A stretch of DNA of 64,000 nt, from NCBI GenBank assembly GCA_017792465.1, contig CP051234.1:4062501-4126500 (forward strand), written 5' to 3'. The translations under genes were made by a program, and so were the position numbers. The notes beneath the pieces are model-generated. The model made no database searches. It was not told the DNA's origin and saw only the letters and a program-made list of their open reading frames with translations. The stretch's first letter is position 1; every line of letters begins with the position of its first letter. The stretch is from Filomicrobium sp. (GTDB lineage: Bacteria > Pseudomonadota > Alphaproteobacteria > Rhizobiales > Hyphomicrobiaceae). Of the stretch, positions 51,394 through 64,000 are shown piece after piece.

Positions 51394-52170
51394 ATGTTGA
51401 GGCTGTTCGGAGTCTTGCTTGCTGCCGTCGTGCTGTGGGCGCCTGTCGGCGCGCAGGCTGCACCAGACGGTTATCGTGATTACAGCAGCAATCCTTATGA
51501 CAATTCATATAGGAGCACCTTCTACGGCAACAAAAAATACTATGGTTATTCTGGCAATAAAAAATCCTACCAGGATAATTCATACGGCAAGAAGAAGTAC
51601 AAGAAGTCGTCGTCCAAGTATTCGAAAAAGGTTCGGAGCGGCGGAGCACGGCCCTACATCGTTCCGAAGAAGCCGGGAATCGTCAAATTCCGCCGCGGCT
51701 ACAAGGCCGGCAGCATCGTTATCGATACGGCTGGGCGCAGGCTTTATTACGTCGTCTCGAAGAGTAAAGCCTATAGCTATCCGATCGCGGTTGGAAAGCC
51801 TGGGTTTGCCTGGACGGGTACGAAGCGAATCTCGGCAAAGAAGGATTGGCCGGATTGGCGGCCGCCGAAGGAAATGCGCCAGCGTACGCCTGGTCTGCCG
51901 GAACTGATGAAGGGCGGCGTCAACAATCCGCTCGGCGCCAAAGCGCTTTATCTGGGCTCATCGCTTTATCGTATCCACGGGACGAACAACGTTAAGTCGA
52001 TTGGGACGGCGTCGTCTTCGGGTTGCTTCCGTATGTCGAACGGTCACGTCGCGCATCTTTCCAGAATTGCGAAGGTCGGGACGACGGTGCATGTGGTTCG
52101 GAGCTTGAAGTCGGGAGGCAAGAAGAAACGCTATTATTCGAAGCGCTACCGCAAGAATAAGAGCGGTTAA
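51394..52170 (+). CDS. L,D-transpeptidase, second copy
   Basis: 258 residues. A signal peptide (RLFGVLLAAVVLWAPVGAQA) leads to a Tyr/Lys/Ser-rich linker (residues 28-85), then a YkuD domain: GSIVIDTAGRRLYYVVSK near its start, YRIHGTNNVKSIGTASSSGC at the active site with the conserved SSGCFRMSN motif, and GTTVHVVR at the end. The cysteine nucleophile and the paired His are intact. Typical work is 3-3 cross-linking or protein anchoring in peptidoglycan. Unlike the gene at 2629 there is only one YkuD domain. A strong terminator follows at 52251. Confidence 0.92.
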   Translation: MLRLFGVLLAAVVLWAPVGAQAAPDGYRDYSSNPYDNSYRSTFYGNKKYYGYSGNKKSYQDNSYGKKKYKKSSSKYSKKVRSGGARPYIVPKKPGIVKFRRGYKAGSIVIDTAGRRLYYVVSKSKAYSYPIAVGKPGFAWTGTKRISAKKDWPDWRPPKEMRQRTPGLPELMKGGVNNPLGAKALYLGSSLYRIHGTNNVKSIGTASSSGCFRMSNGHVAHLSRIAKVGTTVHVVRSLKSGGKKKRYYSKRYRKNKSG

Positions 52171-52250
52171 GTCTTCGAACTTTTCTTGGCCTGCTAGGTC
52201 GACAAACTATTGGGCTTGGCTACAGGGCTCGATAAATCAAAGCAAAATGA

Positions 52251-52291
52251 AGAAAGGGTGGCTGCGGGAAACAGCCACCCTTTCTCGTTTT
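52251..52291 (+). terminator. rho-independent terminator of the L,D-transpeptidase gene
   Basis: The 14-bp stem AGAAAGGGTGGCTG/CAGCCACCCTTTCT with a seven-base loop is followed by CGTTTTTT. It also lies past the nadQ stop on the minus strand, where the T tract is weaker. Confidence 0.92.
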
Positions 52292-52342
52292 TTAATATTC
52301 ATTCGACTGATTGAGGTGCTGAGCGCTGGGCGCACACTGCGA

Positions 52343-53461
52343 TCAGCTTCGACCGAGCTTGATGCGCACGCCGGGGGCGGGGCGTTCCAGAAGAACTTCG
52401 CGGCGGAAACGGAACAGCTTGGCGGGCCGGCCGCCCGTGCGCGTTTTTACTTCTCCGGTCGGTTCGACCAAGCCTGCGCTTTCGACCAAGCGTCGGAAGT
52501 TCTGCTTATGCAGATGCGGACCGAGGATCGCTTCCACGTGTTTTTGCAATTCGAACAACGTGAATTCTGCCGGCATCAATTCGAAAATGACGGGGCGATA
52601 CTTGATCTTGGCGCGGACGCGGCCGATTGCGGTTGCCAGAACGCGCCGGTGATCGAAACGCATCGAAGCGCCGACTGTGGGGGTGTTACCACTGACGACA
52701 GCTGCAGATTCCGGGCGGTCACGGCGGGCTTCTGCGACGAGGCCTGCTTCGTAAAGCAGTTCGTAGCGCTCCAAGACTTTCTCTTCGTCCCAGGCGGCGC
52801 CATCCAATCCGAAGCAGATGCGGGCGCGCTGGCGGCGGTCGAGTGGCCGGGCGGGTGATGTTCTGGCGTTGGGGCTGTCGATCCAGCGCTGAAGTTCAGG
52901 CGCAATCACCTTCTCGATGATTTCCGGGCAGCCTTTGCGCCAATCTTCCCAGGGGAAATAGTGATACCAGCTGCGCCACAAGCCGGCGCGCAGGTTGTCG
53001 ATATCGCTGACGCGCGTGAGCGCCAGATAGCCGATTGATACGACATGCGGACTGGTGTCGCCGGGTTGGGCGTGACGACCGCGGTCGCCGAACGTGTAGA
53101 GTTGTTCGACGTATCCCAGATCGATGTCGGTTTGTTCCTTGACCCAAGAGCGCAGGCCGATTTCAAGCGTGCGATGGTCGAATGGAGAAAACGGGCCGTA
53201 GGGCAATCCATCGGCGCCGTTGGTTTCGTTCTGGTTGCGCACAACGAGCACGACGGGCTCGTCGTTCGACACCGATACGATGGCAGCGTTTAGCCCGATT
53301 TCGACCGGTGTCGCTTCGAGCGATCGCCCCGGACTGCGGATTTCTCGTGAAATCGGCTCGGCAAATTCGGCACTTAGATTAACAGTCGTCGTCACGGCGA
53401 GAACCTCCGTGTCGGTAGTGACGCGGCGAGCCTGATTGGCTAGCGGCGTTGGTTCCGACAT
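52343..53461 (-). CDS. nadQ: NadQ-type NAD biosynthesis regulator (Nudix sensor plus winged helix)
   Basis: 372 residues. Residues 50-190 are a Nudix-like fold (IGLNAAIVSVSNDEPVVLVV) in which the catalytic REUxEE box is degenerate (it reads LRSWVKEQTDIDL), so it should sense rather than cleave a ligand. The C-terminal 110 residues are the winged helix of the NrtR/NadQ class: FTLFELQKHVEAILGPHLHK, QNFRRLVESAGLVEPTGEVK, then GGRPAKLFRF. In comparative-genomics work NadQ represses nadABC in Hyphomicrobiales. That operon is 6 kb downstream, behind two identical-core palindromes at 59430 and 59520. Effector unknown from sequence. Confidence 0.8.
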   Translation of the reverse strand: MSEPTPLANQARRVTTDTEVLAVTTTVNLSAEFAEPISREIRSPGRSLEATPVEIGLNAAIVSVSNDEPVVLVVRNQNETNGADGLPYGPFSPFDHRTLEIGLRSWVKEQTDIDLGYVEQLYTFGDRGRHAQPGDTSPHVVSIGYLALTRVSDIDNLRAGLWRSWYHYFPWEDWRKGCPEIIEKVIAPELQRWIDSPNARTSPARPLDRRQRARICFGLDGAAWDEEKVLERYELLYEAGLVAEARRDRPESAAVVSGNTPTVGASMRFDHRRVLATAIGRVRAKIKYRPVIFELMPAEFTLFELQKHVEAILGPHLHKQNFRRLVESAGLVEPTGEVKTRTGGRPAKLFRFRREVLLERPAPGVRIKLGRS

Positions 53462-53691
53462 AGCTCGCGATCATGCCCGCTAGAAGCGGCCCCCCAAACA
53501 CAATCAGCCCCCAAATAATTGAACTCAATGCGCTTTCCCGTCCGAGCTACGTTTTAGCGCATAAAAATATTTATGGGCCGATCATGGCGAATTTCGGAAA
53601 ATTAAAAGTTCGAAATGAGAACGCCCCGGGCTCGATTGCGCCACAATTGGCAAAATCGTGCCACTTCGTTCATGCGAAGTGGGCTGACGGA

Positions 53692-54348
53692 TTAGCCCGC
53701 TGAGAGGAGCTGGAAGCGTTTAAGAAAGCTTGCTTGAGCCTCTGCGGCGGGCATCGGACGTAGCTTTTTCAGCTCCTCTGAGAGGTTCTCGCCGATGCCG
53801 TTCGGGGAGCCGAAAAAGTTTAGCGCTTCGTTCTTGGCGAAGCCTGCCAGGACGGTTGCTTCAAAGTAAGCGGCGATGTGATCGGCGGCTTTGATTTCTA
53901 TAGAGATTTCGTTTGGGAGTTCTTTTGGCAATTCGAAGCGCTGGTGGATGGCTTCGAGGAGGCGGATCTCGAAGGCTTTGTAGTCGAGGCCGATGGCGTT
54001 CTTGAACGGTGAAATGAGATCGCCGACGACGTATTCGGCGGCATCGTGCAGCAGTGCCGCAAGGCGCCAGTGCGAGGGCCAATCGGTATTTCTCTCCGAG
54101 GCGATGGCTTCAACAATCAAAACGTGCTGCGCGACCGAGAGTGCGTGGTCACCGAGTGTCTGGCCGTTCCAGCGCGCGACGCGGGCGAGACCGTGGGCGA
54201 TGTCGTCGATTTCGATATCGGCGGGATCGGGATCAAGCAGGTCGAGACGGCGGCCGGACAGCATGCGTTGCCAGGCGCGCGGTGCGCTGCTGGCGTCAGT
54301 TTGCCGGGCTGCCGCGGGCTGTTGAATGGATACGTTCTGATTCTTCAT
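53692..54348 (-). CDS. HD-domain hydrolase (YfbR-like)
   Basis: 218 residues. Metal site His and His-Asp pairs appear as HALSVAQHVLIVEAIA and AALLHDAAEYVVGDLISPFK, with a late Asp in AADHIAAYFEA. This is the HD family of YfbR-type 5'-nucleotidases acting on deoxynucleoside monophosphates, though exact substrate is inferred. Its ATG overlaps the tag stop by four bases (ATGA), so it is the last member of a coupled ygfZ-tag-HD unit. Confidence 0.85.
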   Translation of the reverse strand: MKNQNVSIQQPAAARQTDASSAPRAWQRMLSGRRLDLLDPDPADIEIDDIAHGLARVARWNGQTLGDHALSVAQHVLIVEAIASERNTDWPSHWRLAALLHDAAEYVVGDLISPFKNAIGLDYKAFEIRLLEAIHQRFELPKELPNEISIEIKAADHIAAYFEATVLAGFAKNEALNFFGSPNGIGENLSEELKKLRPMPAAEAQASFLKRFQLLSAG

Positions 54349-54977
54349 TTGGCGAGTTTAGCGCGCGCCTGCAATTCGGCACAGGGGGTATGGCGGTGGC
54401 ACGCCAGCAGATGATCGTTGACCATCCCAACAGACTGCATGAAGGCGTAAGCTGTTGTCGGGCCGACAAAACGAAAGCCGCGCTTTTTAAGTTCCTTCGA
54501 CATGCGTTTTGAAATTTCTGTCTGGGCCGGAACGTCGGAAAAGTTCTTCCACTTATTCGCTTTCGGCGGGTCATCAAGCATGCCCCAAAGGAAGCCGCTG
54601 AAACTTTCACGTTCGGAAATCGCGAGAAAGGCTTTGGCGTTGTCGATGGTGGCGTCGATCTTCAGGCGGTTGCGGATGATGCTGGCGTCGGCCATCAGGC
54701 GCGCGCGGTCTTTGTCGGTGAAGCGGGCGATCATTTCGGGCTCGAAACCTTTGAAGGCTTTGCGGAAGTTGTCGCGCTTCTTGAGGATCGTCAGCCAGGA
54801 TAGTCCCGACTGGAAACCCTCTAGGATCAGTTTTTCGAACAGCGCGCGATCATCGAACTGGGGCACGCCCCATTCGGTGTCGTGATAGGCGGAATAGATC
54901 GGCGTCTCGATCCCGCCCCAGGGGCAGCGGATCGGTTGATCTTCCGAATGAGGAGCGGGCGTTTTCGCGGCGCTCAC
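54345..54977 (-). CDS. tag: DNA-3-methyladenine glycosylase I
   Basis: About 210 residues. The zinc snap of Tag is complete: N-terminal Cys in IRCPWGG, His in YHDTEWG, and CHRHTPC near the end. The base-binding region (GFQSGLSWLTILKKRDNFRK) is conserved. The enzyme removes 3-methyladenine from alkylated DNA. A GTG start at 54977 overlaps the ygfZ stop by four bases. An ATG further upstream inside ygfZ is possible but less likely. Translational coupling to ygfZ and the following HD gene is expected. Confidence 0.93.
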   Translation of the reverse strand: MSAAKTPAPHSEDQPIRCPWGGIETPIYSAYHDTEWGVPQFDDRALFEKLILEGFQSGLSWLTILKKRDNFRKAFKGFEPEMIARFTDKDRARLMADASIIRNRLKIDATIDNAKAFLAISERESFSGFLWGMLDDPPKANKWKNFSDVPAQTEISKRMSKELKKRGFRFVGPTTAYAFMQSVGMVNDHLLACHRHTPCAELQARAKLAK

Positions 54978-55873
54978 GCTTTGGCATCCGCTTCGGGCGG
55001 AAACTTGAAGGTGGCCCATTGTGGCAGCGCGATTTCAATCTGGGCGTCTCCTGCGGAGAGCTTTTCGCCCTTGGCGAGCGTCTCGGCTGCACGGTCTAGA
55101 CGCAGCATGGCAAGTCCGCGATTTTCACAAACCGTGCCGAGCGATCCAATCGCAACGATACCCGCCGTGATGTCGCTGCCGCCTGGTGGCAAAGCTTTGT
55201 CACCGGTGATTGGCACGACGCGTTTGCGGACCGTTGAGCGGTGCTGCATGCGGCTCACCACTTCCTGCCCGACGTAGCACCCTTTGTTGAAGGAGACGCT
55301 GCCGAGTTGATCGTAAAGCGCTTCGTGCGGGAAGGTATCGCCGAGAGGGAAGTCCTTGCCGGCTTCAGGTATGCCGAGCGCAATGCGGCGGGCGTCGTAG
55401 GAAGGTTCGCTGGCGGCATCGGCATCCAGCTTTTTCAAGGCGCTGTCGTTGGTGAGCGTCATCAAGAGGCGCACGCCCAAGTCGCCCTGGCGCGGATCGT
55501 TGAAACAGATGCAGTCGAGGCTGCCTGCGGCTTCGCACGGGTTCGAGCCCCAGACCGCAGCGACCGTATAGTCGGCGCTGGCATCGGTGATGGTGACATC
55601 GGCGCGCAATTTATACATCGTCAACCGCTTGAGGAGTTCTGCGACGTGGCCCTTGTCGGTCTCGATCAAATAGCCGCCGTCAGCGGGCACGACGAAGAAA
55701 TCGAATAGGATTTTTCCCTGCGGGCTCAACAGGCCGGTGTGCAGGCCCGTGCCTTCGGCACCGAGCTGGTCCATGTCGGCGGTGATGATGCCCTGCAGGA
55801 ACTTTTGCGCATCCTTGCCGGTGACTTTGAGCACGCCCCGGTTGGGCAGTAGCGCGATTTTCAGATCGGACAT
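54974..55873 (-). CDS. ygfZ: folate-binding Fe-S cluster assembly protein YgfZ
   Basis: About 299 residues of aminomethyltransferase-like fold. The diagnostic motif KGCYVGQEVVSRMQHR is present with its cysteine. An opening KIALLPNRGVLKVTGKDAQK leads to FLQGIITADM. YgfZ helps assemble or repair [4Fe-4S] clusters in a folate-dependent manner; NadA downstream (another transcription unit) needs such a cluster. The ATG at 55873 has AAAGG upstream. It is divergent from the dihydroorotase with 106 bases between. Confidence 0.94.
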   Translation of the reverse strand: MSDLKIALLPNRGVLKVTGKDAQKFLQGIITADMDQLGAEGTGLHTGLLSPQGKILFDFFVVPADGGYLIETDKGHVAELLKRLTMYKLRADVTITDASADYTVAAVWGSNPCEAAGSLDCICFNDPRQGDLGVRLLMTLTNDSALKKLDADAASEPSYDARRIALGIPEAGKDFPLGDTFPHEALYDQLGSVSFNKGCYVGQEVVSRMQHRSTVRKRVVPITGDKALPPGGSDITAGIVAIGSLGTVCENRGLAMLRLDRAAETLAKGEKLSAGDAQIEIALPQWATFKFPPEADAKA

Positions 55874-55979
55874 TTGGCAGCCTTTCGGGTTCGATGGCTT
55901 GCGGTTCGTACCAGACTTAACTAAGCGGGAGGCGAAACGGGTGCAAGGAGCGCCGAAATTTCTGTGAGGGAGCCGCAGC

Positions 55980-57308
55980 ATGCCTGAGACCTATGACCTG
56001 ATCATCAAGGGCGGAACGGTCGTCAACCAGGATGGTATGGGCGCGCGCGATATCGGCATTAGCGGCGGGCGGATCATGGCGCTGGGCGACTTGTCGGGGG
56101 CGAGCGCGGGAGAAGTTCTCGATGCCAAGGGGCTGACGATCCTGCCGGGCGTGATCGACAGTCAGGTGCATTTCCGCGAGCCGGGCATGACCCACAAGGA
56201 AGACCTTGAAACGGGGTCGCGCGGGGCGGTTCTGGGCGGCGTGACGACCGTTTTCGAGATGCCGAACACCAATCCCAATACCACCACGCCCGAATTGCTG
56301 GCCGACAAGGTGAAGGCCGCGCATCACCGCATGTTCTGCGATTTTGCGTTCTACGTCGGGGGGACGGAAGACAACGTCGATGACATCCCGGAACTGGAGC
56401 GTCTGCCAGGCTCGGCAGGCATTAAAGTGTTCATCGGCTCGTCGACGGGGACGCTGCTGGTAGATAAGCCTGCCGTGCTTGATGCGATCATTGCCAAGAT
56501 TTCGCGGCGTGCGGCGTTTCACTGCGAGGACGAGGGGCGGCTCAATCAGCGCAAGGATCTGCGCGTCGAAGGCGATCCCTCCTCGCATCCGGTGTGGCGC
56601 GACGAGATCGCGGCGCTGATGGCGACCAAGCAGCTTGTCGGGCTGGCGGAGAAATATGGCAAGCGGGTGCATGTGCTGCACGTTTCGACGGCGATCGAAA
56701 TGGAGTTCCTGGCGCATCACAAGGAGTGGGCGAGCGTCGAGGTGACGCCGCATCATCTCACCTTGGTTGCGCCGGAGTGCTACGAGCGGCTTGGCACCTA
56801 TTGTCAGATGAACCCGCCGGTGCGCGATGCGGCCAACCAGGCAGGCATCTGGGCGGGTCTCGCGAATGGAGTCGTTGACGTTCTGGGCTCAGATCACGCG
56901 CCGCACACGCGCGAAGAAAAGGACCACGCCTATCCCGCGTCGCATTCGGGGATGACGGGCGTGCAGACGCTGCTGCCGATCATGCTCGATCACGTCAACG
57001 CCGGACGGTTGAGCCTGGAGCGGCTCGTTGATCTGACGGGGCACGGGCCGCAGCGCTTGTTTGGATTGCGCGGCAAGGGGCGCATCGCGGTTGGCTATGA
57101 CGCCGACTTGGCAATCGTCGATATGAAGCGGACCGAGACGATCAAGAACGAACAGGTGGCGAGCCGCGCGGGCTGGACGCCTTATGACGGTAAACAGGTC
57201 ACCGGCTGGCCGGTCGGCACGTTCGTGCGCGGCACGAAAGTGATGTGGGACGGGGAGATATTAGGGGCTGCTGTCGGCGAGGCCGCGCGGTTTAATGAGG
57301 GGAGTTGA
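55980..57308 (+). CDS. pyrC: dihydroorotase-like amidohydrolase
   Basis: 442 residues, type I dihydroorotase/allantoinase fold. Metal ligands present: His64 in QVHFREPG, the lysine that is carbamylated in GIKVFIGSSTG, His in AFHCEDEG and HVLHVSTA, and the catalytic Asp in LGSDHAPHTREEK. The first His of the usual HxH is Gln62 (DSQVHFREPG). The REPG and SDHAPH motifs are those of dihydroorotase, the third step of pyrimidine synthesis. Without pyrB beside it the specificity is not proven. A binding site GGGAG precedes the ATG. Confidence 0.87.
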   Translation: MPETYDLIIKGGTVVNQDGMGARDIGISGGRIMALGDLSGASAGEVLDAKGLTILPGVIDSQVHFREPGMTHKEDLETGSRGAVLGGVTTVFEMPNTNPNTTTPELLADKVKAAHHRMFCDFAFYVGGTEDNVDDIPELERLPGSAGIKVFIGSSTGTLLVDKPAVLDAIIAKISRRAAFHCEDEGRLNQRKDLRVEGDPSSHPVWRDEIAALMATKQLVGLAEKYGKRVHVLHVSTAIEMEFLAHHKEWASVEVTPHHLTLVAPECYERLGTYCQMNPPVRDAANQAGIWAGLANGVVDVLGSDHAPHTREEKDHAYPASHSGMTGVQTLLPIMLDHVNAGRLSLERLVDLTGHGPQRLFGLRGKGRIAVGYDADLAIVDMKRTETIKNEQVASRAGWTPYDGKQVTGWPVGTFVRGTKVMWDGEILGAAVGEAARFNEGS

Positions 57309-57317
57309 GGTGGGGAG

Positions 57318-57941
57318 CTATTGTACTTCGCAGCGGTGAAATTCTACGAGTGCTTTTTTGTGTGGCTTCATGCGCTCAAAGAATTCGTCGGAGCAGAAAT
57401 AATCAAATGCGAATGGGTCGCCGCCTCCGCCGTACTTGCCGATACCGCCGCGCCACAAATGATGCCCTTCAATCATCGACGACTTGAGCACAATTGGACC
57501 AGACGCCGATAATTGTCCGCCACCGGTTATGTCGGTTTTGCCTATTCCATCAGCAAAGCGCGTCTTCTCAATAATAATTGACCCTCGCAAGGCAGTCGTG
57601 ACATGCAGAAGATAGAATGGCCTCTCGTCAGTCATGGCATCTTTGAGTCTGACGCGGATGGGAATGAAGTTGTGACGTCCAGGCTCAAGCCCTTCAACTA
57701 AATTGCGGACTTCCTCATCGATATGCCAAGGGAATACAGCTCCACCCCAAATTGGGGAGATGTCTTGTCCTTTCGCGCATTCGACAACATACGGGTCAGG
57801 TTTTCGATTCAATATGTCCTCGTCGACCTTCTCTCCCCGCCAAATTGGTCCAAGGAACGCGTTGCGAAGCGCCTTATCCTGATCAATGAGGGGGTATACT
57901 GTCGCCTTGGTGCTCCGGTTCGGTTTGAGATGAAACGGCAT
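57318..57941 (-). CDS. Imm11-like (DUF1629) immunity-type protein
   Basis: 207 residues. The last 90 residues have the pattern of Imm11/DUF1629 proteins: FYLLHVTTALRGSIIIEKTR, an IVLKSSMIEGHHLWRGGIGK block and FFERMKPHKKALVEFHRCEV after FDYFCSDE. Imm11 members protect cells from polymorphic toxins and are often orphaned when the toxin gene is lost. No toxin gene is seen nearby. GC is lower than in the flanks, and the gene stands between pyrC and a palindromic repeat, so it looks like an acquired cassette. It converges with pyrC with only 9 bases between stops. Confidence 0.65.
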   Translation of the reverse strand: MPFHLKPNRSTKATVYPLIDQDKALRNAFLGPIWRGEKVDEDILNRKPDPYVVECAKGQDISPIWGGAVFPWHIDEEVRNLVEGLEPGRHNFIPIRVRLKDAMTDERPFYLLHVTTALRGSIIIEKTRFADGIGKTDITGGGQLSASGPIVLKSSMIEGHHLWRGGIGKYGGGGDPFAFDYFCSDEFFERMKPHKKALVEFHRCEVQ

Positions 57942-58263
57942 AGTTTCACTACCTTTCGTCCTCGCGTCTCGGCGTTAAACTGCGGTGCCGATAACGCAGG
58001 ATTTTTCCTAAGCTGTGCAAGTCATGCTGCCAACAAGAGGTCCTGACGAGATTGATAGAGGCTTGGACGGATCCCGCCCTTCGGCGGGATGACGGTTGGT
58101 GGTGGTCGAGAACGGTGAGATCTCTCCAATCGCGATGTTGATCTTCGAACGTCATCCCCGCGTCCATGCGAAGCATGGCTTCGCCATGACGGCGGCGATC
58201 TACCCACGCCAACATTTTTGCGCCGTGTTGGACCAAATTCCTGCCCTGCCTATCGCATCCGTC
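57942..58263. other. intergenic stretch with palindromic repeat
   Basis: Between two minus-strand genes. Positions 58050-58200 hold the repeat unit listed separately; the rest has no gene. Confidence 0.45.
58050..58200. repeat. palindromic intergenic repeat element
   Basis: Two hairpins lie head to tail. ATCCCGCC pairs with GGCGGGAT around CTTC (58071-58090), and CCATGC with GCATGG around GAA (58164-58178). The flanks GATGACGG and CGTCATCCCC are inverted relative to each other. Such short palindromic units with ATCCCGCC...GGCGGGATGACG are widespread between genes in this order, to my recollection. I cannot count copies elsewhere from this window. Confidence 0.55.
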
Positions 58264-58521
58264 CTACTTGTTCTTCTGTGAGTTTCGCTCGCTGATGAGG
58301 CGTCCGGTGTATTCCAGTATTACTTTTCCGGCGATCCGAGTGTCGCCGGTGTATGGTGCCGGCAAGGCTTGCTTTACAAGTTCGTAGAACTTATTGGCTT
58401 TCACCTTATTCTCGTCCGTTTCGCCTTTTGCAAAAATGTCCCTGCCGAACGCATTTAGTGCCGGATCTGTGAAAACCTCGGCGGTCAGTTCTGCTATCTG
58501 CTGTTTTGACAGCTTTCCCAT
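58264..58521 (-). CDS. small hypothetical protein
   Basis: About 85 residues, all-helical and charged (LSKQQIAELTAEVFTDPALN, then KANKFYELVKQALPAPYTGD). No export signal. The ATG at 58521 starts a continuous frame; a few codons upstream are open. Not recognised. It belongs to the accessory patch with the Imm11-like gene. Confidence 0.5.
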   Translation of the reverse strand: MGKLSKQQIAELTAEVFTDPALNAFGRDIFAKGETDENKVKANKFYELVKQALPAPYTGDTRIAGKVILEYTGRLISERNSQKNK

Positions 58522-58626
58522 GAATAGTTCGGGTATGCTTCGTCTCCAGACCATGTATTTGGTGCCCGCAGTTCAAGCCTACCTGATAGAAACCGCTGCT
58601 TCGATTTGTGGAGCGCTCCGCACCCA

Positions 58627-59154
58627 TCAGCGTTCCGATTTTAGTGGTGGTTTTTGCTGGGCTGCGTTTGCGGTTGTTGCTGCGTCCTGGGTTGCCCCTC
58701 CGGCGCTTGCCATGCGCAATTGAAACGCGCCGGCGTTCTCGTTGGCAGCGGCGTCGATCATGCCGCCGATGGGGCCGAGCACGCTGCCCGGAATGACGCT
58801 ATCGCCGCGCGGTTCGACGACGAGATCGTAGGTCTGTCCTGCCACCGCGTTGAGGTTGACCTTGTATTCGCCGGGATAGGACCAGGCCGACGCGGCAATG
58901 ACGTTTTGTCCAGCGGGAACGTGGAAGGACGATGTCGCGCCAGTCCAAACGTCGGTCATCTTCTTGCCGTTGACCGTGATCGTTGCGGGTGCGCCGGAGT
59001 ACATCAAGGCGTTTGTCCGCGAGACTTTCACCCGCGCTTGGCCGGCTGGAATTGCGCCCGTCACGATATCGGCATCACCCGGCGCGCCTGCGCAGGCTGA
59101 GACCAGTAGCGCGGCTGTAACCGCCAGGACGACCTGCTTTAAATGATCGAACAT
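58627..59154 (-). CDS. lipoprotein of unknown function
   Basis: 175 residues. The lipobox is VSAC (LAVTAALLVSACAGAPG). The mature part is a beta-rich domain (RVKVSRTNALMYSGAPATIT, then SSFHVPAGQNVIAASAWSY and EYKVNLNAVAGQTYDLVVEP) similar in plan to DUF2846-like carbohydrate-binding or beta-sandwich domains, ending in an Ala/Thr/Gln-rich tail. No enzymatic residues are visible. Envelope attachment is likely; role unknown. Confidence 0.72.
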   Translation of the reverse strand: MFDHLKQVVLAVTAALLVSACAGAPGDADIVTGAIPAGQARVKVSRTNALMYSGAPATITVNGKKMTDVWTGATSSFHVPAGQNVIAASAWSYPGEYKVNLNAVAGQTYDLVVEPRGDSVIPGSVLGPIGGMIDAAANENAGAFQLRMASAGGATQDAATTANAAQQKPPLKSER

Positions 59155-59429
59155 ATCTCCCCCTCACCGCAGCCTTAAAATTCGGTGGATGCTGCGCGTG
59201 GTTATAAGGGATGCGGGCGGAGGATGCTACTTATGGTGGTTGGGGTTTTTGCCGCGGTTGAAGCAAAGCTGTGCATGGAAAGTCCGTGCTGATGGCTTGG
59301 CGATGAATGCGGTTTTTATGACGGCTCGCACCGCCTGCGCATGGCGGCTTTCGCGACTGGCACTGCAACAGATTTTTGAAATCGACTGGAAATTCTGGGC
59401 CGAACGCCCTATATTGGATACGTAAATCA

Positions 59430-59446
59430 ATGCTCCGTTTGAGCAT
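59430..59446. promoter_or_regulatory. NadQ-type operator, distal copy
   Basis: The palindrome ATGCTC-CGTTT-GAGCAT has six-base arms around five bases. It differs from the proximal copy in one spacer base only. The two centres are 92 bases apart. Binding by the regulator at 52343 is inferred from the family. Confidence 0.7.
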
Positions 59447-59519
59447 AACAAGTTAACCACGTTGGCCGCTGAGCCCGAAGGGACGTTGTAGAAGGCGGCC
59501 GCCGCAGAGTCTGCAATAG

Positions 59520-59540
59520 ATATGCTCAGTTTGAGCATAT
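59520..59540. promoter_or_regulatory. NadQ-type operator, proximal copy
   Basis: A perfect palindrome with nine-base arms, ATATGCTCA and its reverse complement, around GTT. It lies 374 bases before the nadA start. It probably overlaps the nadA promoter. Confidence 0.78.
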
Positions 59541-59583
59541 TAGATATGGCGAAAGGCGGACGGTGTCAACGGTCAAGTGTCCA

Positions 59584-59660
59584 ATGGCGGAGGCACGCGA
59601 CGCCGAAGGGACCTGAGAGCGAAGGGACGCCATGGCAAAGGCGCGTAACGGCGAATGGAC
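59584..59660 (+). repeat. imperfect direct repeat in the nadA leader
   Basis: Two 29-base copies begin at 59584 and 59632 (48 bases apart, a multiple of three), each opening ATGGC and ending GGAC, matching at about 22 of 29 positions. Each copy could begin a very short reading frame (10 codons at 59584, 29 codons at 59632), each with some purine-rich sequence before it. Whether these are translated is unknown. Confidence 0.45.
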
Positions 59661-59823
59661 GGGAGAAGGTCTTCGGTCGGCCTTTGCAAGTGGTGGAGCC
59701 AAGCAGATGACGTTGCGTTGAGGTAATGCGCGCCGATTCGAGGTTGGGCGACGGAATTAACGACGAGAGGGCCGCAAGATCCAGCAGCGGCTTTTCGACA
59801 AGGAAGCAAACAGAAAAGGCTAA

Positions 59824-59840
59824 CGCATCGTGTCGATGCG
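59824..59840 (+). other. hairpin in the nadA leader
   Basis: CGCATCG and CGATGCG form a perfect seven-base stem with loop TGT, 74 bases before the nadA start. No T-run follows. Could be part of a structured leader. Confidence 0.5.
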
Positions 59841-59913
59841 CCAATCAAAGCCTTCGCAGACAGTTTCAGCGCCACACCAGCGGACGGCGCAGATCATGAG
59901 AAAGGAGTTCCGC

Positions 59914-60981
59914 ATGGACAATATCGAGCTTCGCAACGAAAGCCCGAGCCACGGCGAAACCCGGAAATTCGAGCCGCTTCCGCGGCCTTCCCTGGAGTTT
60001 ACTCCAGAGGTCGAAGCAGAAACGCGCCACCTTTATGAGCGCGTGAAGCATGTCGTGACGCCGATGGAATGGCCGCACTATGCGCCGCTCATCAAGGCGA
60101 TCAACGACCTGAAGAAAGAGCGCAACGCCGTCATCCTGGCGCATAACTACATGACGCCGGAAGTCTTCCACTGCGTGGGCGATTTCCAGGGCGACAGCCT
60201 GCAGCTGGCGAAAGAAGCCGGCAAGGTCGATGCGGATGTGATCGTGCAGGCCGGCGTTCACTTCATGGCGGAAACGTCAAAGCTGATGAACCCGGACAAG
60301 ACGGTTCTCATTCCAGACCTTGAGGCGGGCTGTTCGCTTGCCTCGTCGATCACGGCTGAAGACGTCCGGCAGCTGCGCAAAGCCTATCCGGGCGTGCCGA
60401 TCGTCACCTATGTGAACACGAGTGCGGCGGTGAAAGCCGAATGCGATATCTGCTGCACGTCGTCGAACGCGGTGAAGGTCGTCGAGAGCCTGGGCGCGCC
60501 ACGCGTGTTGTGCATTCCCGATGAGTATCTGGCGAAGTACGTTCAGACGCAGACCGACGTCGAGATCATTTCCTGGAAAGGCCACTGTGAGGTGCACAAG
60601 CTCTTTTCGGCCGAAGAGATTGAGACCATGCGGGAAGCCGAGCCGGGCTTGAAAGTGATCGCGCATCCGGAGTGTCCTCCAGAGGTGATCGAGGTTGCCG
60701 ACTTCACGGGTTCGACGTCGGGCATGATCAACTGGACCAAGGATAACAAGCCGGCAAAGGTGATGCTTGTCACCGAGTGTTCGATGTCTTCGAACGTCGC
60801 CGCCGAGCTGCCGGAGACGGAGTTCATCCGGCCCTGCAACCTGTGCCCGCATATGAAGCGCATCAGCCTTGAGAAGATCTTGGATTCGCTTCTTTACATG
60901 CAGCACGAAGTTACCGTCGATCCGGACGTTGCGCAGCGCGCGCGACTGGCGGTCGAACGGATGGTCAATCTGACGAACTGA
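59914..60981 (+). CDS. nadA: quinolinate synthase
   Basis: About 355 residues. NadA condenses iminoaspartate with dihydroxyacetone phosphate to quinolinate using a [4Fe-4S] cluster. The three cluster cysteines are in [20 protein letters not shown] and [10 protein letters not shown]. Substrate motifs include [22 protein letters not shown] and [12 protein letters not shown] 48-residue head precedes the first repeat. The ATG at 59914 has AAAGGAG six bases before it; a frame upstream to 59830 is rejected. It heads the nadA-nadB-nadC operon; the palindromes at 59430 and 59520 are the likely operators. Confidence 0.97.
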
Positions 60982-60997
60982 TTGATACGCAGAACGA

Positions 60998-61023
60998 CCC
61001 GCGCCGGGATCCTTCGGCGCGGG
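60998..61023 (+). other. intercistronic hairpin between nadA and nadB
   Basis: CCCGCGCCG and CGGCGCGGG form a nine-base stem with an eight-base loop. No T-run, so it is more likely an mRNA stability or processing element than a terminator. Confidence 0.55.
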
Positions 61024-61080
61024 GGATGCGTTTGATTGGCGGAAGCATCGAGGCTTGGCCAATCCGATTGTGAGGACCTC

Positions 61081-62748
61081 ATGGCACGACTTCTTCAAGA
61101 GAAGGCATTGATCGCCGGGTTCGAAGATCCGAAGGGATCGTTCGGGCCGGGGGATATCGTCGTTGTGGGGGCTGGTCTGGCTGGGCTGTTCACGGCTTTG
61201 AAACTGGCACCGCTGCCGGTGACGGTTATTTCCCCGGCGCCGCTGGGCGAAGGTGCATCGAGTGTCTGGGCGCAAGGCGGGATCGCGGCAGCCGTCGGTG
61301 AAGGCGATACGCCGGACGCGCATGCGACCGATACGATTGCGGCGGGTGCCGGTCTCGTTAAAGACTTTGTTGCCAAGACAATTACCGGCGAAGCGCCCGA
61401 TCGTATCCGCGATCTTCTGCGCTATGGGGTTCCGTTCGACAAAAGCCTCGAAGGGTACTTTGTTTTGTCCAAGGAAGCGGCGCATTCGGCCAAGCGGGTC
61501 GTGCGCGTTTCGGGTGACCGAGCGGGCGCTGCGATCATGCAGGCGCTCATCGCGCAGGTTCGCCGGACGCCATCGATCCGCGTGCTTGAAGGTTTCGAAG
61601 CGGAAGACCTGATCGTTGAAGACGGCCGCATTGCTGGCGTTCGTCTTATTCGCGGAGCGCAGCGCGGTAACGGCACCTACAAGCTGTTGCCGGCTGCCGG
61701 AGTCGTATTCGCGACGGGCGGGATCGGCGGGCTTTATAACGTCACGACGAACCCGGCTTATGCCCGCGGCGAAGCGTTGGCGATTGCGGCTCGGGCCGGT
61801 GCGATTATCGCGGATGCCGAATTCGTGCAGTTTCACCCGACGGCACTTGATGTCGGTCAGGACCCAGCACCACTGGCGACCGAAGCGTTGCGCGGTGAAG
61901 GTTCGATCCTCGTCAATGGTGACGGGCATCGCTTCATGAAAGATTTGCATGCCGACGCCGAACTTGCGCCGAGAGATATCGTGGCGCGTGGGGTCTTCGC
62001 TGAGATCGCTGCCGGACGTGGCGTCTATCTGGATTGCCGCGAGGCCATCGGCGCGGACTTCGCCAAGCGGTTCCCAACCGTCTATGGCTATTGCGTCGAA
62101 GCCGGGCTCGATCCGCAGCATGATTTGTTGCCGGTGGCGCCGGCCGCGCACTACCACATGGGCGGTATCGCGACTGACCTTAAAGGACGATCGAGCGTCG
62201 AAGGATTATGGGCGGTCGGTGAGGTGGCCTGTACGGGTCTGCATGGCGGCAACAGGCTCGCGTCCAACTCGCTTCTCGAAGCGGTGGTGATCGCGGCGCG
62301 CGCGGCGGCGGACATCGCGAAGCTTGCTGACGGCGCCGAGGATCTTGGACCGGTTGCGTTGACGCGCTTTGAAGATCTCAAGATCGCCAACAAGGCGCAG
62401 CGTGGTGAGTTGCTCGAAGAAATTCGCATCATTATGAGCCGCGATGCCGGCGTCATTCGCGACCGTGCCGGATTGCGGCGGGCGTTCAACCGTCTCACCA
62501 GGATCGAGCAGGCCGGCAACGGCGATCTGGTGCTTGCCAACATGGCGTTGGCGGCTCGGTTTGTTGTCGGCTCGGCGCTCAAGCGGCGCGAAAGCCGAGG
62601 TGCGCATTTTCGTAGCGATTATCCGCAGACCGAGGCCTATGCGCGGCATTCCCTTCTGCGGTTGGGTGATCTCGAAGAACTCTATCAATGCACGCGCAAT
62701 AGCGAGATCGATTGCGACGGCGAAGAAGCAACCGTTTGGGCGCAATGA
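61081..62748 (+). CDS. nadB: L-aspartate oxidase
   Basis: About 555 residues, normal for NadB. The FAD site is VVVGAGLAGLFTAL. Substrate elements are GASSVWAQGGIAAAVGEGD, FATGGIGGLYNVTTNP, FVQFHPTALDVGQDPAPLA and AHYHMGGIATDL. The succinate dehydrogenase/fumarate reductase C-terminal domain follows. It oxidises aspartate to iminoaspartate for NadA. The start at ATG 61081 follows GAGGA. Its stop overlaps the nadC start (ATGA). Confidence 0.97.
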   Translation: MARLLQEKALIAGFEDPKGSFGPGDIVVVGAGLAGLFTALKLAPLPVTVISPAPLGEGASSVWAQGGIAAAVGEGDTPDAHATDTIAAGAGLVKDFVAKTITGEAPDRIRDLLRYGVPFDKSLEGYFVLSKEAAHSAKRVVRVSGDRAGAAIMQALIAQVRRTPSIRVLEGFEAEDLIVEDGRIAGVRLIRGAQRGNGTYKLLPAAGVVFATGGIGGLYNVTTNPAYARGEALAIAARAGAIIADAEFVQFHPTALDVGQDPAPLATEALRGEGSILVNGDGHRFMKDLHADAELAPRDIVARGVFAEIAAGRGVYLDCREAIGADFAKRFPTVYGYCVEAGLDPQHDLLPVAPAAHYHMGGIATDLKGRSSVEGLWAVGEVACTGLHGGNRLASNSLLEAVVIAARAAADIAKLADGAEDLGPVALTRFEDLKIANKAQRGELLEEIRIIMSRDAGVIRDRAGLRRAFNRLTRIEQAGNGDLVLANMALAARFVVGSALKRRESRGAHFRSDYPQTEAYARHSLLRLGDLEELYQCTRNSEIDCDGEEATVWAQ

Positions 62749-63629
62749 GTTCGAAAACTTCACATCGCTCAAAGATGGTGCTGTCGCCCCTGCCGCGTGG
62801 CCTCGTTGACAAAGCTGTCGAGGCTGCACTTGCCGAAGACCTCGGCTTGGCCGGTGACATCACGACGGATGCGTGTGTGCCTGCCGATGCGCGCGCGGTT
62901 GCCGTAGTTGCGGCGCGGCGACCGGGGGTGATCTCAGGACTACAGCTGGCAGAAGCAGCGTTCAAAGCAATTGATGCCAGTGTGGAGTTTGAGACTGTTC
63001 TCAAGGATGGCGCACAAGCTGCTCCCGGAGACGAGGTCGCGCGCATTTCCGGCAAGGCGCGGGCGTTGCTGACGGCGGAACGCGTGGCGCTCAATTTCAT
63101 GGGCCGCATGAGCGGGATCGCGACGCTGACGCGGTCTTATGTTGAAGCGATTACGGGAACGGGCGCATTCATTGCCGACACGCGCAAGACGACCCCGGGT
63201 TTACGCGCGTTCGAGAAATATGCAGTTCGCTGCGGCGGCGGGCACAATCACCGAACCGGGCTGTTCGATGCGATCCTGATCAAGGACAATCATATCGTGG
63301 CGGCGGGCGGTGCAGCGCAGGCGATCAAGGCGGCGCGCGCCCATGGCGGGCATATGGTGAAGATCGAGATCGAGGTCGATACGCTCGATCAGCTTCGCGC
63401 GGTTTTGCCGTTCGGTCCGGATGTTGTTTTGCTCGACAACATGTCTCTTGATGAGTTGCGCGAAGCTGTTTCGCTTGCCAAGGGCCAAGCGCTTCTTGAA
63501 GCCTCAGGCGGGGTCAATCTCGAGACCGTACGCGGCATCGCTGAAACGGGGGTCGATCTCATTTCGGTCGGTGCGTTGACGCATTCCGCACCGGTACTTG
63601 ATCTCGGGCTTGATTTCAAGTCGGCTTGA
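62745..63629 (+). CDS. nadC: nicotinate-nucleotide diphosphorylase (carboxylating)
   Basis: About 294 residues. Quinolinate phosphoribosyltransferase motifs: ADTRKTTPGLRAFEKYAVR, CGGGHNHRTGLFDAILIKDN with the catalytic RHNHR-type basic residues, LLDNMSLDELREAVSLA and ISVGALTHSAPVLD. It makes NaMN from quinolinate and PRPP. The ATG overlaps the nadB stop by four bases, so translation is coupled. Confidence 0.97.
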   Translation: MSSKTSHRSKMVLSPLPRGLVDKAVEAALAEDLGLAGDITTDACVPADARAVAVVAARRPGVISGLQLAEAAFKAIDASVEFETVLKDGAQAAPGDEVARISGKARALLTAERVALNFMGRMSGIATLTRSYVEAITGTGAFIADTRKTTPGLRAFEKYAVRCGGGHNHRTGLFDAILIKDNHIVAAGGAAQAIKAARAHGGHMVKIEIEVDTLDQLRAVLPFGPDVVLLDNMSLDELREAVSLAKGQALLEASGGVNLETVRGIAETGVDLISVGALTHSAPVLDLGLDFKSA

Positions 63630-63659
63630 GCGCGGGTGCGCCTTTTCCAACTTGATTGT

Positions 63660-64000
63660 TCATCGTTTCGGTGCGGCGGCACGTAGTAACCGGTCGTTGA
63701 TTGCGCCGCCGATGCCTGTCCATGGAATCGGCATCGCAGCAATCGAACCGCAGCCGGCGCTATCAAGCTCTCGCAGTGCAGAAAATAGATTGGCTGCGGC
63801 TTCCCTGAGATCTCCCGCCTCGCTCAGGTTGATGACGGGACCGCTGCTTGGCGGAACGTCGGGGCCGAATGCGAGGAGGGCTTCACCGGGTTCTGGGCGA
63901 TCGACGTTGAGGCGCAGGCGGGCCTTTGGCGCATAGTGGCTTGAAAGCTGTCCTGGTGCAGAAGGCGCGTGATCGTTTGAGACCTGACCGATGGCCACAG
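63660..64000 (-). CDS. Sua5-type L-threonylcarbamoyladenylate synthase, C-terminal part (cut by window edge)
   Basis: Only the last 113 or so residues are inside the window; the start lies beyond 64000. The visible part is the Sua5-specific C-terminal domain: APGQLSSHYAPKARLRLN, then ALLAFGPDVP, LSEAGDLREAAANLFSALRE and IPWTGIGGAINDRLLRAAA. Sua5 forms the intermediate for t6A37 on tRNAs that read ANN codons. The YrdC domain cannot be checked here. The gene converges with nadC with 30 bases between. Confidence 0.85.
   Translation of the reverse strand, partial: VAIGQVSNDHAPSAPGQLSSHYAPKARLRLNVDRPEPGEALLAFGPDVPPSSGPVINLSEAGDLREAAANLFSALRELDSAGCGSIAAMPIPWTGIGGAINDRLLRAAAPKR

Follow-up and report, generated by a model that had tools for sequence, protein, structure and literature searches.

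How are nadABC, the genes for de novo NAD synthesis, controlled in Filomicrobium sp., and why would two nearly identical palindromes precede them? We analyzed a stretch of 64,000 nucleotides (contig CP051234.1 of assembly GCA_017792465.1, positions 4,062,501 to 4,126,500; hereafter the window), in which nadA, nadB, and nadC follow in this order downstream of the two palindromes, here called operators O1 and O2. Our analysis of the sequence makes it likely that the regulator NadQ, encoded in the same window, acts as a repressor of nadABC at two operators that both lie within the transcribed leader, with O1 hindering transcription initiation or promoter clearance and O2 serving as a roadblock. 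In relatives, a leader hairpin may assist in releasing the halted polymerase.

The original prediction, made from the window alone, had placed twin palindromes upstream of nadABC. Both were present at the positions given, and their 17-base cores differ by a single base. It had also proposed a genome scan for the pattern ATGCTC-N5-GAGCAT, and the exact pattern turned out to be confined to the region upstream of nadA rather than scattered: the whole genome (4,470,904 bp) holds two copies, both upstream of nadA, against a chance expectation of ~0.3 per genome for 12 fixed bases. According to the available passages of PMC5343134, the NadQ (COG4111) regulon has the motif ttATRCTCannntGAGYATaa and nadABC as its core target. 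O2 fits the strict core of this motif, and O1 deviates from it at the inner A. Looser matches to the core carry little weight because they are common at two to three mismatches, both in the genome (220 with up to two mismatches versus 58 for the reversed control) and in the window (56 with up to three versus a shuffle mean of 32.4). Six genomic sites differ from the core by one mismatch; the five that were examined (L003-L007) all fall within open frames of at least 100 amino acids, and further NadQ targets in this genome were rejected on that ground. The nadQ locus itself (L008) has no core site with up to one mismatch and thus gave no sign of autoregulation.

The candidate reader of these sites is encoded on the minus strand of the window (nadQ in Table 1). 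The closest solved structures of its product are PDB entries 7q91-7q94, named 'NADQ transcription factor' (phmmer E 9.1e-87, residues 57-371). The NrtR/NadQ-class winged helix, which had been recognized in the original prediction, was recovered as PF21906 (80.3 bits; cut-off, 27), and it is the single winged helix of this type found in the whole genome. The NtrR/NrtR equivalog model gave 75.3 bits, below its cut-off of 400, and by this model the product is not a full-length NrtR. The Nudix-like domain had been described as lacking the catalytic glutamates, which holds only in part. In the alignment with 7q91, the Nudix-box segment reads lrswvkeqt in the window protein and lrewiheqt in solved NadQ; of the Nudix-box glutamates, one is retained and others are missing. 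A Pfam search of the product gave no match to a Nudix family. The Sinorhizobium meliloti homologue (55.5% identity) is annotated as 'NAD regulator' and has an HD hydrolase and YgfZ nearby; ahead of nadQ in the window lie YgfZ, a methyladenine glycosylase, and a YfbR-like HD protein. We regard the assignment of this gene as nadQ as well supported by these matches. The control of nadABC by NadQ had been presented as a prediction; the target agrees with the published one, but the wording is outdated, as the structures exist. Going by its title, the article of Minazzato et al. 2022 reportedly deals with an ATP-responsive regulator, and the signal to NadQ is, by that title, probably ATP. NadQ-like proteins also occur in 256 plasmid records, 176 of them from Rhizobium; these proteins could be paralogous to the chromosomal one.

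We next followed the palindromes in other genomes. Loci with nadA were collected from 80 named contigs and from genomes of the genus, the family, and the order; of 170 loci in all, 143 contained nadA, and removal of 23 near-duplicates left 120 distinct loci. At least one operator site was found in 116 of the 120 (177 sites versus 0 matches to the reversed pattern). Among the 119 loci with at least 300 nt of upstream sequence, 60 had two sites, 55 had one, and 4 had none, with up to one mismatch allowed; an additional locus with a shorter upstream region carried two, bringing the twin-site loci to 61. Of 60 family genomes, 14 carried the strict motif and none the reversed control, and 15 of the 16 strict sites fall no more than 400 nt upstream of nadA. 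The exception, in genome G053 (C57), has no hairpin adjoining it. An intact nadA was not found in 22 of the 60 family genomes. In nine of these that were examined, the nadA family model had no match (0/9) and the operator core occurred in one (1/9), while all six covered by the NadQ search kept a NadQ homologue. Thus, the operator travels with nadA and not with NadQ alone. Loci L024 (G011), L034 (G022), L035 (G017), and L037 (G010) and genomes G013 and G020 are cases with a NadQ homologue (49-69% identity) in which neither nadA nor the operator core was found. In L121 (G008), no operator was found in the 406 nt upstream of nadA, where the locus ends; a GACACC...GGTGTC inverted repeat, seen by eye, suggests an inserted element there. 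The uniqueness of the sites, the published motif and target, and the conservation of the motif upstream of nadA all favor the NadQ-type regulation put forward originally, and nadABC as the target of NadQ here appears well supported.

The way in which NadQ would act depends on where the operators lie relative to the promoter. O1 begins 14 nt past the -10 box of a predicted sigma-70-type promoter (Table 1), and both operators would therefore lie inside the transcribed leader. Relatives show a similar placement, as a -10-like hexamer, whose background rate is 0.7% per position, occurs 19-21 nt ahead of the O1 core in 19 of the 31 twin-site loci of the family. Of the remaining 30 twin loci, three show the hexamer at this distance (L038 and two loci under the name Hyphomicrobium, L039 and L042); in 10, it lies one helical turn closer, 9-11 nt upstream of the O1 core. 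A further arrangement is seen in 14 Rhizobiaceae-type loci, where a single operator lies 39-40 nt beyond a conserved -10-like CTAA(A/G)T, with TTGnA ahead of it as judged by eye. Should this element be the promoter, it would be out of the operator's reach, and a roadblock would then be the natural reading. In the window, transcription from the predicted promoter would start near 59422. NadQ on O1 (~+8 to +24) would then hinder initiation or promoter clearance, and NadQ on O2 (~+100) would act as a second, separate roadblock for the elongating polymerase.

Table 1. Coordinates of the nadABC control region, its genes, and the regulator gene in the window
Feature	Position	Strand	Remarks
nadQ	52343-53461	-	Nudix-like N-terminal part and NrtR-type winged helix; phmmer to PDB, PF21906
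Predicted sigma-70-type promoter TGGAAA-17-TATATT	59387-59415	+	consensus scan; -10-like hexamer there in relatives
Operator O1	59430-59446	.	exact core ATGCTC-CGTTT-GAGCAT, six-base arms
Possible leader-hairpin remnant GGCCGC/GCGGCC	59464-59469 / 59495-59500	+	by eye, no T-run, not significant
Operator O2	59520-59540	.	perfect palindrome ATATGCTCA-GTT-TGAGCATAT, nine-base arms; strict family motif matched
Long nadA leader past O2	59541-59913	+	375 nt from O2 core to ATG
nadA, quinolinate synthase	59914-60981	+	NF006878 367 bits, cut-off 294; start by Shine-Dalgarno
nadB, L-aspartate oxidase	61036-62748	+	open frame limits; NF005701 722.7 bits, cut-off 528
nadC, nicotinate-nucleotide diphosphorylase	62712-63629	+	open frame limits; TIGR00078 332.9 bits, cut-off 198.4

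Two operators could also cooperate, as the original prediction had suggested for a centre distance of about nine turns, with NadQ on O1 and on O2 making contact or closing a DNA loop at a set helical phase. The core starts are 92 bp apart, which at 10.5 bp per turn corresponds to 8.8 turns. Twin sites are indeed found in 61 of the 120 distinct loci. Eight genus members have sites, and six of these show distances of 92, 92, 92, 93, 94, and 95 bp. However, the distance is 145 bp in G003 and 59 bp in G007, even inside the genus, and ranges from 32 to 145 bp over the 61 twin-site loci, while the 14 Rhizobiaceae-type loci manage with a single operator. At a period of 10.5 bp, the phase was not significant (Rayleigh p ~0.12, 61 twin loci). 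Values of 0.024 at 10.0 bp and 0.031 at 10.2 bp, uncorrected for the seven periods tried, are compatible with a weak phasing of O1 and O2. Binding over a set number of turns thus did not find support in the spacing, and we consider cooperation between the two sites quite improbable.

An element at a much tighter distance emerged when the leaders were lined up on their last operator, namely a GC-rich inverted repeat, followed by T's, upstream of the operator. We searched the 116 leaders of loci with a site for a hairpin of at least five pairs ending 14-22 nt before the last operator. Such a hairpin was found in 99 of them, ending 14-20 nt (median 18) before the operator, and in 80 the distance was 17-19 nt; the corresponding figures were 14.7% for dinucleotide shuffles and 15-38 of 116 for windows displaced by 30-80 nt. 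In the 9 nt after the hairpin, 76 of the 99 leaders have at least four T's and 47 have at least five. A stricter terminator score was reached by 34 of the 116 leaders versus 0.7% in shuffles. Many leaders of relatives thus carry a stable GC hairpin before the last operator, often with a T-run, at which termination may occur. The loops are variable, and the stems differ in sequence between loci. Because the variable loop length led alignment A1 to misplace the left arms, covariation was assessed by partner permutation: in the 37 loci without a CCGG right arm, the pairing sum of a locus's own arms was 173, whereas 2000 permutations gave 128 (sd 5.9, maximum 151). Own-arm pairing thus exceeded all permutations, and the two arms change together in the manner expected of an RNA hairpin. 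The interquartile range of the hairpin-operator distance is 17-18, compared with 64-92 for O1-O2 and 18.5-36 for O2 to the start codon, and no other spacing that we measured in the leader is as tight. No hairpin was called in 17 loci, nine of them twin (the window included) and eight single; in four of these eight (L053, L070, L072, and L108), a -10-like box lies within ~4 nt of the operator, by eye. In the hairpin-bearing single-site loci, a degenerate O1 with up to three mismatches was detected in 20 of 47; the reversed control gave 8 of 47, so these matches are partly due to chance.

The same distances bear on a different arrangement, in which a second promoter lies beneath the last operator and the hairpin only ends transcription that comes in from upstream. 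A T-run hairpin before a promoter is a frequent arrangement, and a -10-like hexamer overlaps the proximal operator (offset -1, mean 4.18 of 6 matches). However, this hexamer belongs to the NadQ motif, and a conserved -35 element is missing ~17 nt upstream, where an arm of the hairpin is located. The hairpin-operator distance is also tighter than an upstream terminator requires, and several Rhizobiaceae loci have another, separate hairpin (by eye) ahead of the conserved TTG...CTAA(A/G)T. We therefore consider a second promoter at the last operator unlikely.

The front edge of RNA polymerase extends roughly 14-18 bp beyond its active site. With the hairpin ending ~18 nt before the operator, the RNA end of a polymerase halted by NadQ would therefore lie at or just before the T-run, and in relatives the stalled polymerase, standing at or beside the T-run, could be released there. 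As far as the available passages of PMC4132739 describe them, the roadblocks of LacI, CcpA, and CodY work as proposed here for NadQ, with a DNA-bound repressor downstream of the promoter stalling the polymerase; the nadA leaders of relatives differ in having a terminator-like hairpin at the predicted stall point. The same passages report that polymerase roadblocked by LacI is cleared mainly by Mfd and that a short promoter-roadblock spacing allows more readthrough. A terminator hairpin at the stall point would answer both the Mfd-dependent clearing and the short-spacing readthrough. Similarly to leader-terminator attenuators, the nadA leaders of relatives have a hairpin and T-run between promoter and gene, but no alternative antiterminator was identified in them, and the fixed partner of the hairpin is a DNA operator. 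Only tentatively would we extend this to NadQ throughout Hyphomicrobiales and neighboring Alphaproteobacteria, as a roadblock-assisted intrinsic termination in which operator occupancy sets the efficiency of the RNA terminator and replaces clearing by Mfd, the genus of the window having retained the operators and lost the T-run.

Alternatively, the hairpin could be a leader element that stabilizes the mRNA or serves translation and has no connection with NadQ. In the Rhizobiaceae-type loci, it starts 6-8 nt past the -10-like element and thus near the predicted 5' end, and in the genus the stem is kept in six of the eight leaders with sites, while five of the six have no more than two T's in the next 9 nt (L166 has four). 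On the other hand, the tightest spacing of the leader is the one that ties the hairpin to the operator, and in the operator-less leaders L055 and L088 no comparable hairpin with a T-run was found, L055 showing only a four-pair CGGC/GCCG stem. A role of the hairpin unconnected with NadQ appears unlikely to us as well. Because the genus is mostly without the T-run, a plain double roadblock is the likelier mode there than release at a hairpin. In the window, the leader hairpin may have left a remnant, the GGCCGC/GCGGCC repeat at 59464/59495.

Several observations weigh against NadQ acting as a double roadblock aided by a hairpin in relatives. The consensus scan of 59150-59950 returned one promoter-like match, barely above the 0.4 expected by chance. 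Among the 31 family twin loci, 12 have no -10-like hexamer at -21 to -19, and averaging over all twin loci hides the upstream signal and places the highest -10 scores within the operators. In the window, we found no terminator before O2, with no plus-strand match, no hairpin called, and a fold z of -0.72. Two short leaders folded alone were no better than shuffles (L087, z -1.04; L100, z -0.80); that of L169 was more stable than shuffles (z -3.43). Moreover, the counted loci are related by descent and thus do not represent independent events.

The leader of the window has features of its own. The likeliest nadA start is the ATG preceded by AAGGAG at 59902, which puts nadA 375 nt past the O2 core, compared with 17-130 nt in seven genus relatives (projected starts). 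The segment 59447-59930 was unmatched in the eight other genus genomes, and as a repeated element the leader has no second copy in the genome. Folding gave no support for a structured RNA at 59540-59930 (z -1.35; equalled or bettered by 10 of 100 shuffles), and an Rfam scan of window positions 52000-64000 and of six relatives found nothing at gathering scores. Within 59475-59628, (C/G)CGAAGGGAC occurs three times, and in three genus relatives (L167, L168, and L169) the stretch between O2 and nadA shows, by eye, inverted repeats of the type CCAACACC...GTGTTGG, one or two per leader. Elsewhere in the window, a small protein at 57318-57941 on the minus strand matches the Imm11 immunity family barely above the cut-off (23.7 bits versus 22.1).

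With respect to known systems, the window circuit shares the regulator family, the palindrome motif, and the nadABC target with NadQ (COG4111) as given in the available passages of PMC5343134, and it very probably represents an ordinary control of this known type. The NrtR regulators of NAD genes have the C-terminal winged helix PF21906 in common with the window NadQ; their N-terminal part and motif differ, according to the same passages. Those passages do not mention twin leader operators, a placement beyond the -10 box, or a hairpin at fixed distance, and the open-access literature, searched by title listings, yielded nothing on a coupling of NadQ operators and terminators in nad leaders. 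The placement of both operators inside the predicted transcribed leader appears to be new, and in relatives the hairpin at fixed distance from the last operator hints at a so far undescribed mode of halting transcription.

Together, these data link de novo NAD synthesis to NadQ in one more genus. If the proposed coupling is true, the hairpin-operator module would unite a repressor roadblock and intrinsic termination in a single control element, and operators lying ~18 bp past terminators would be worth seeking elsewhere.

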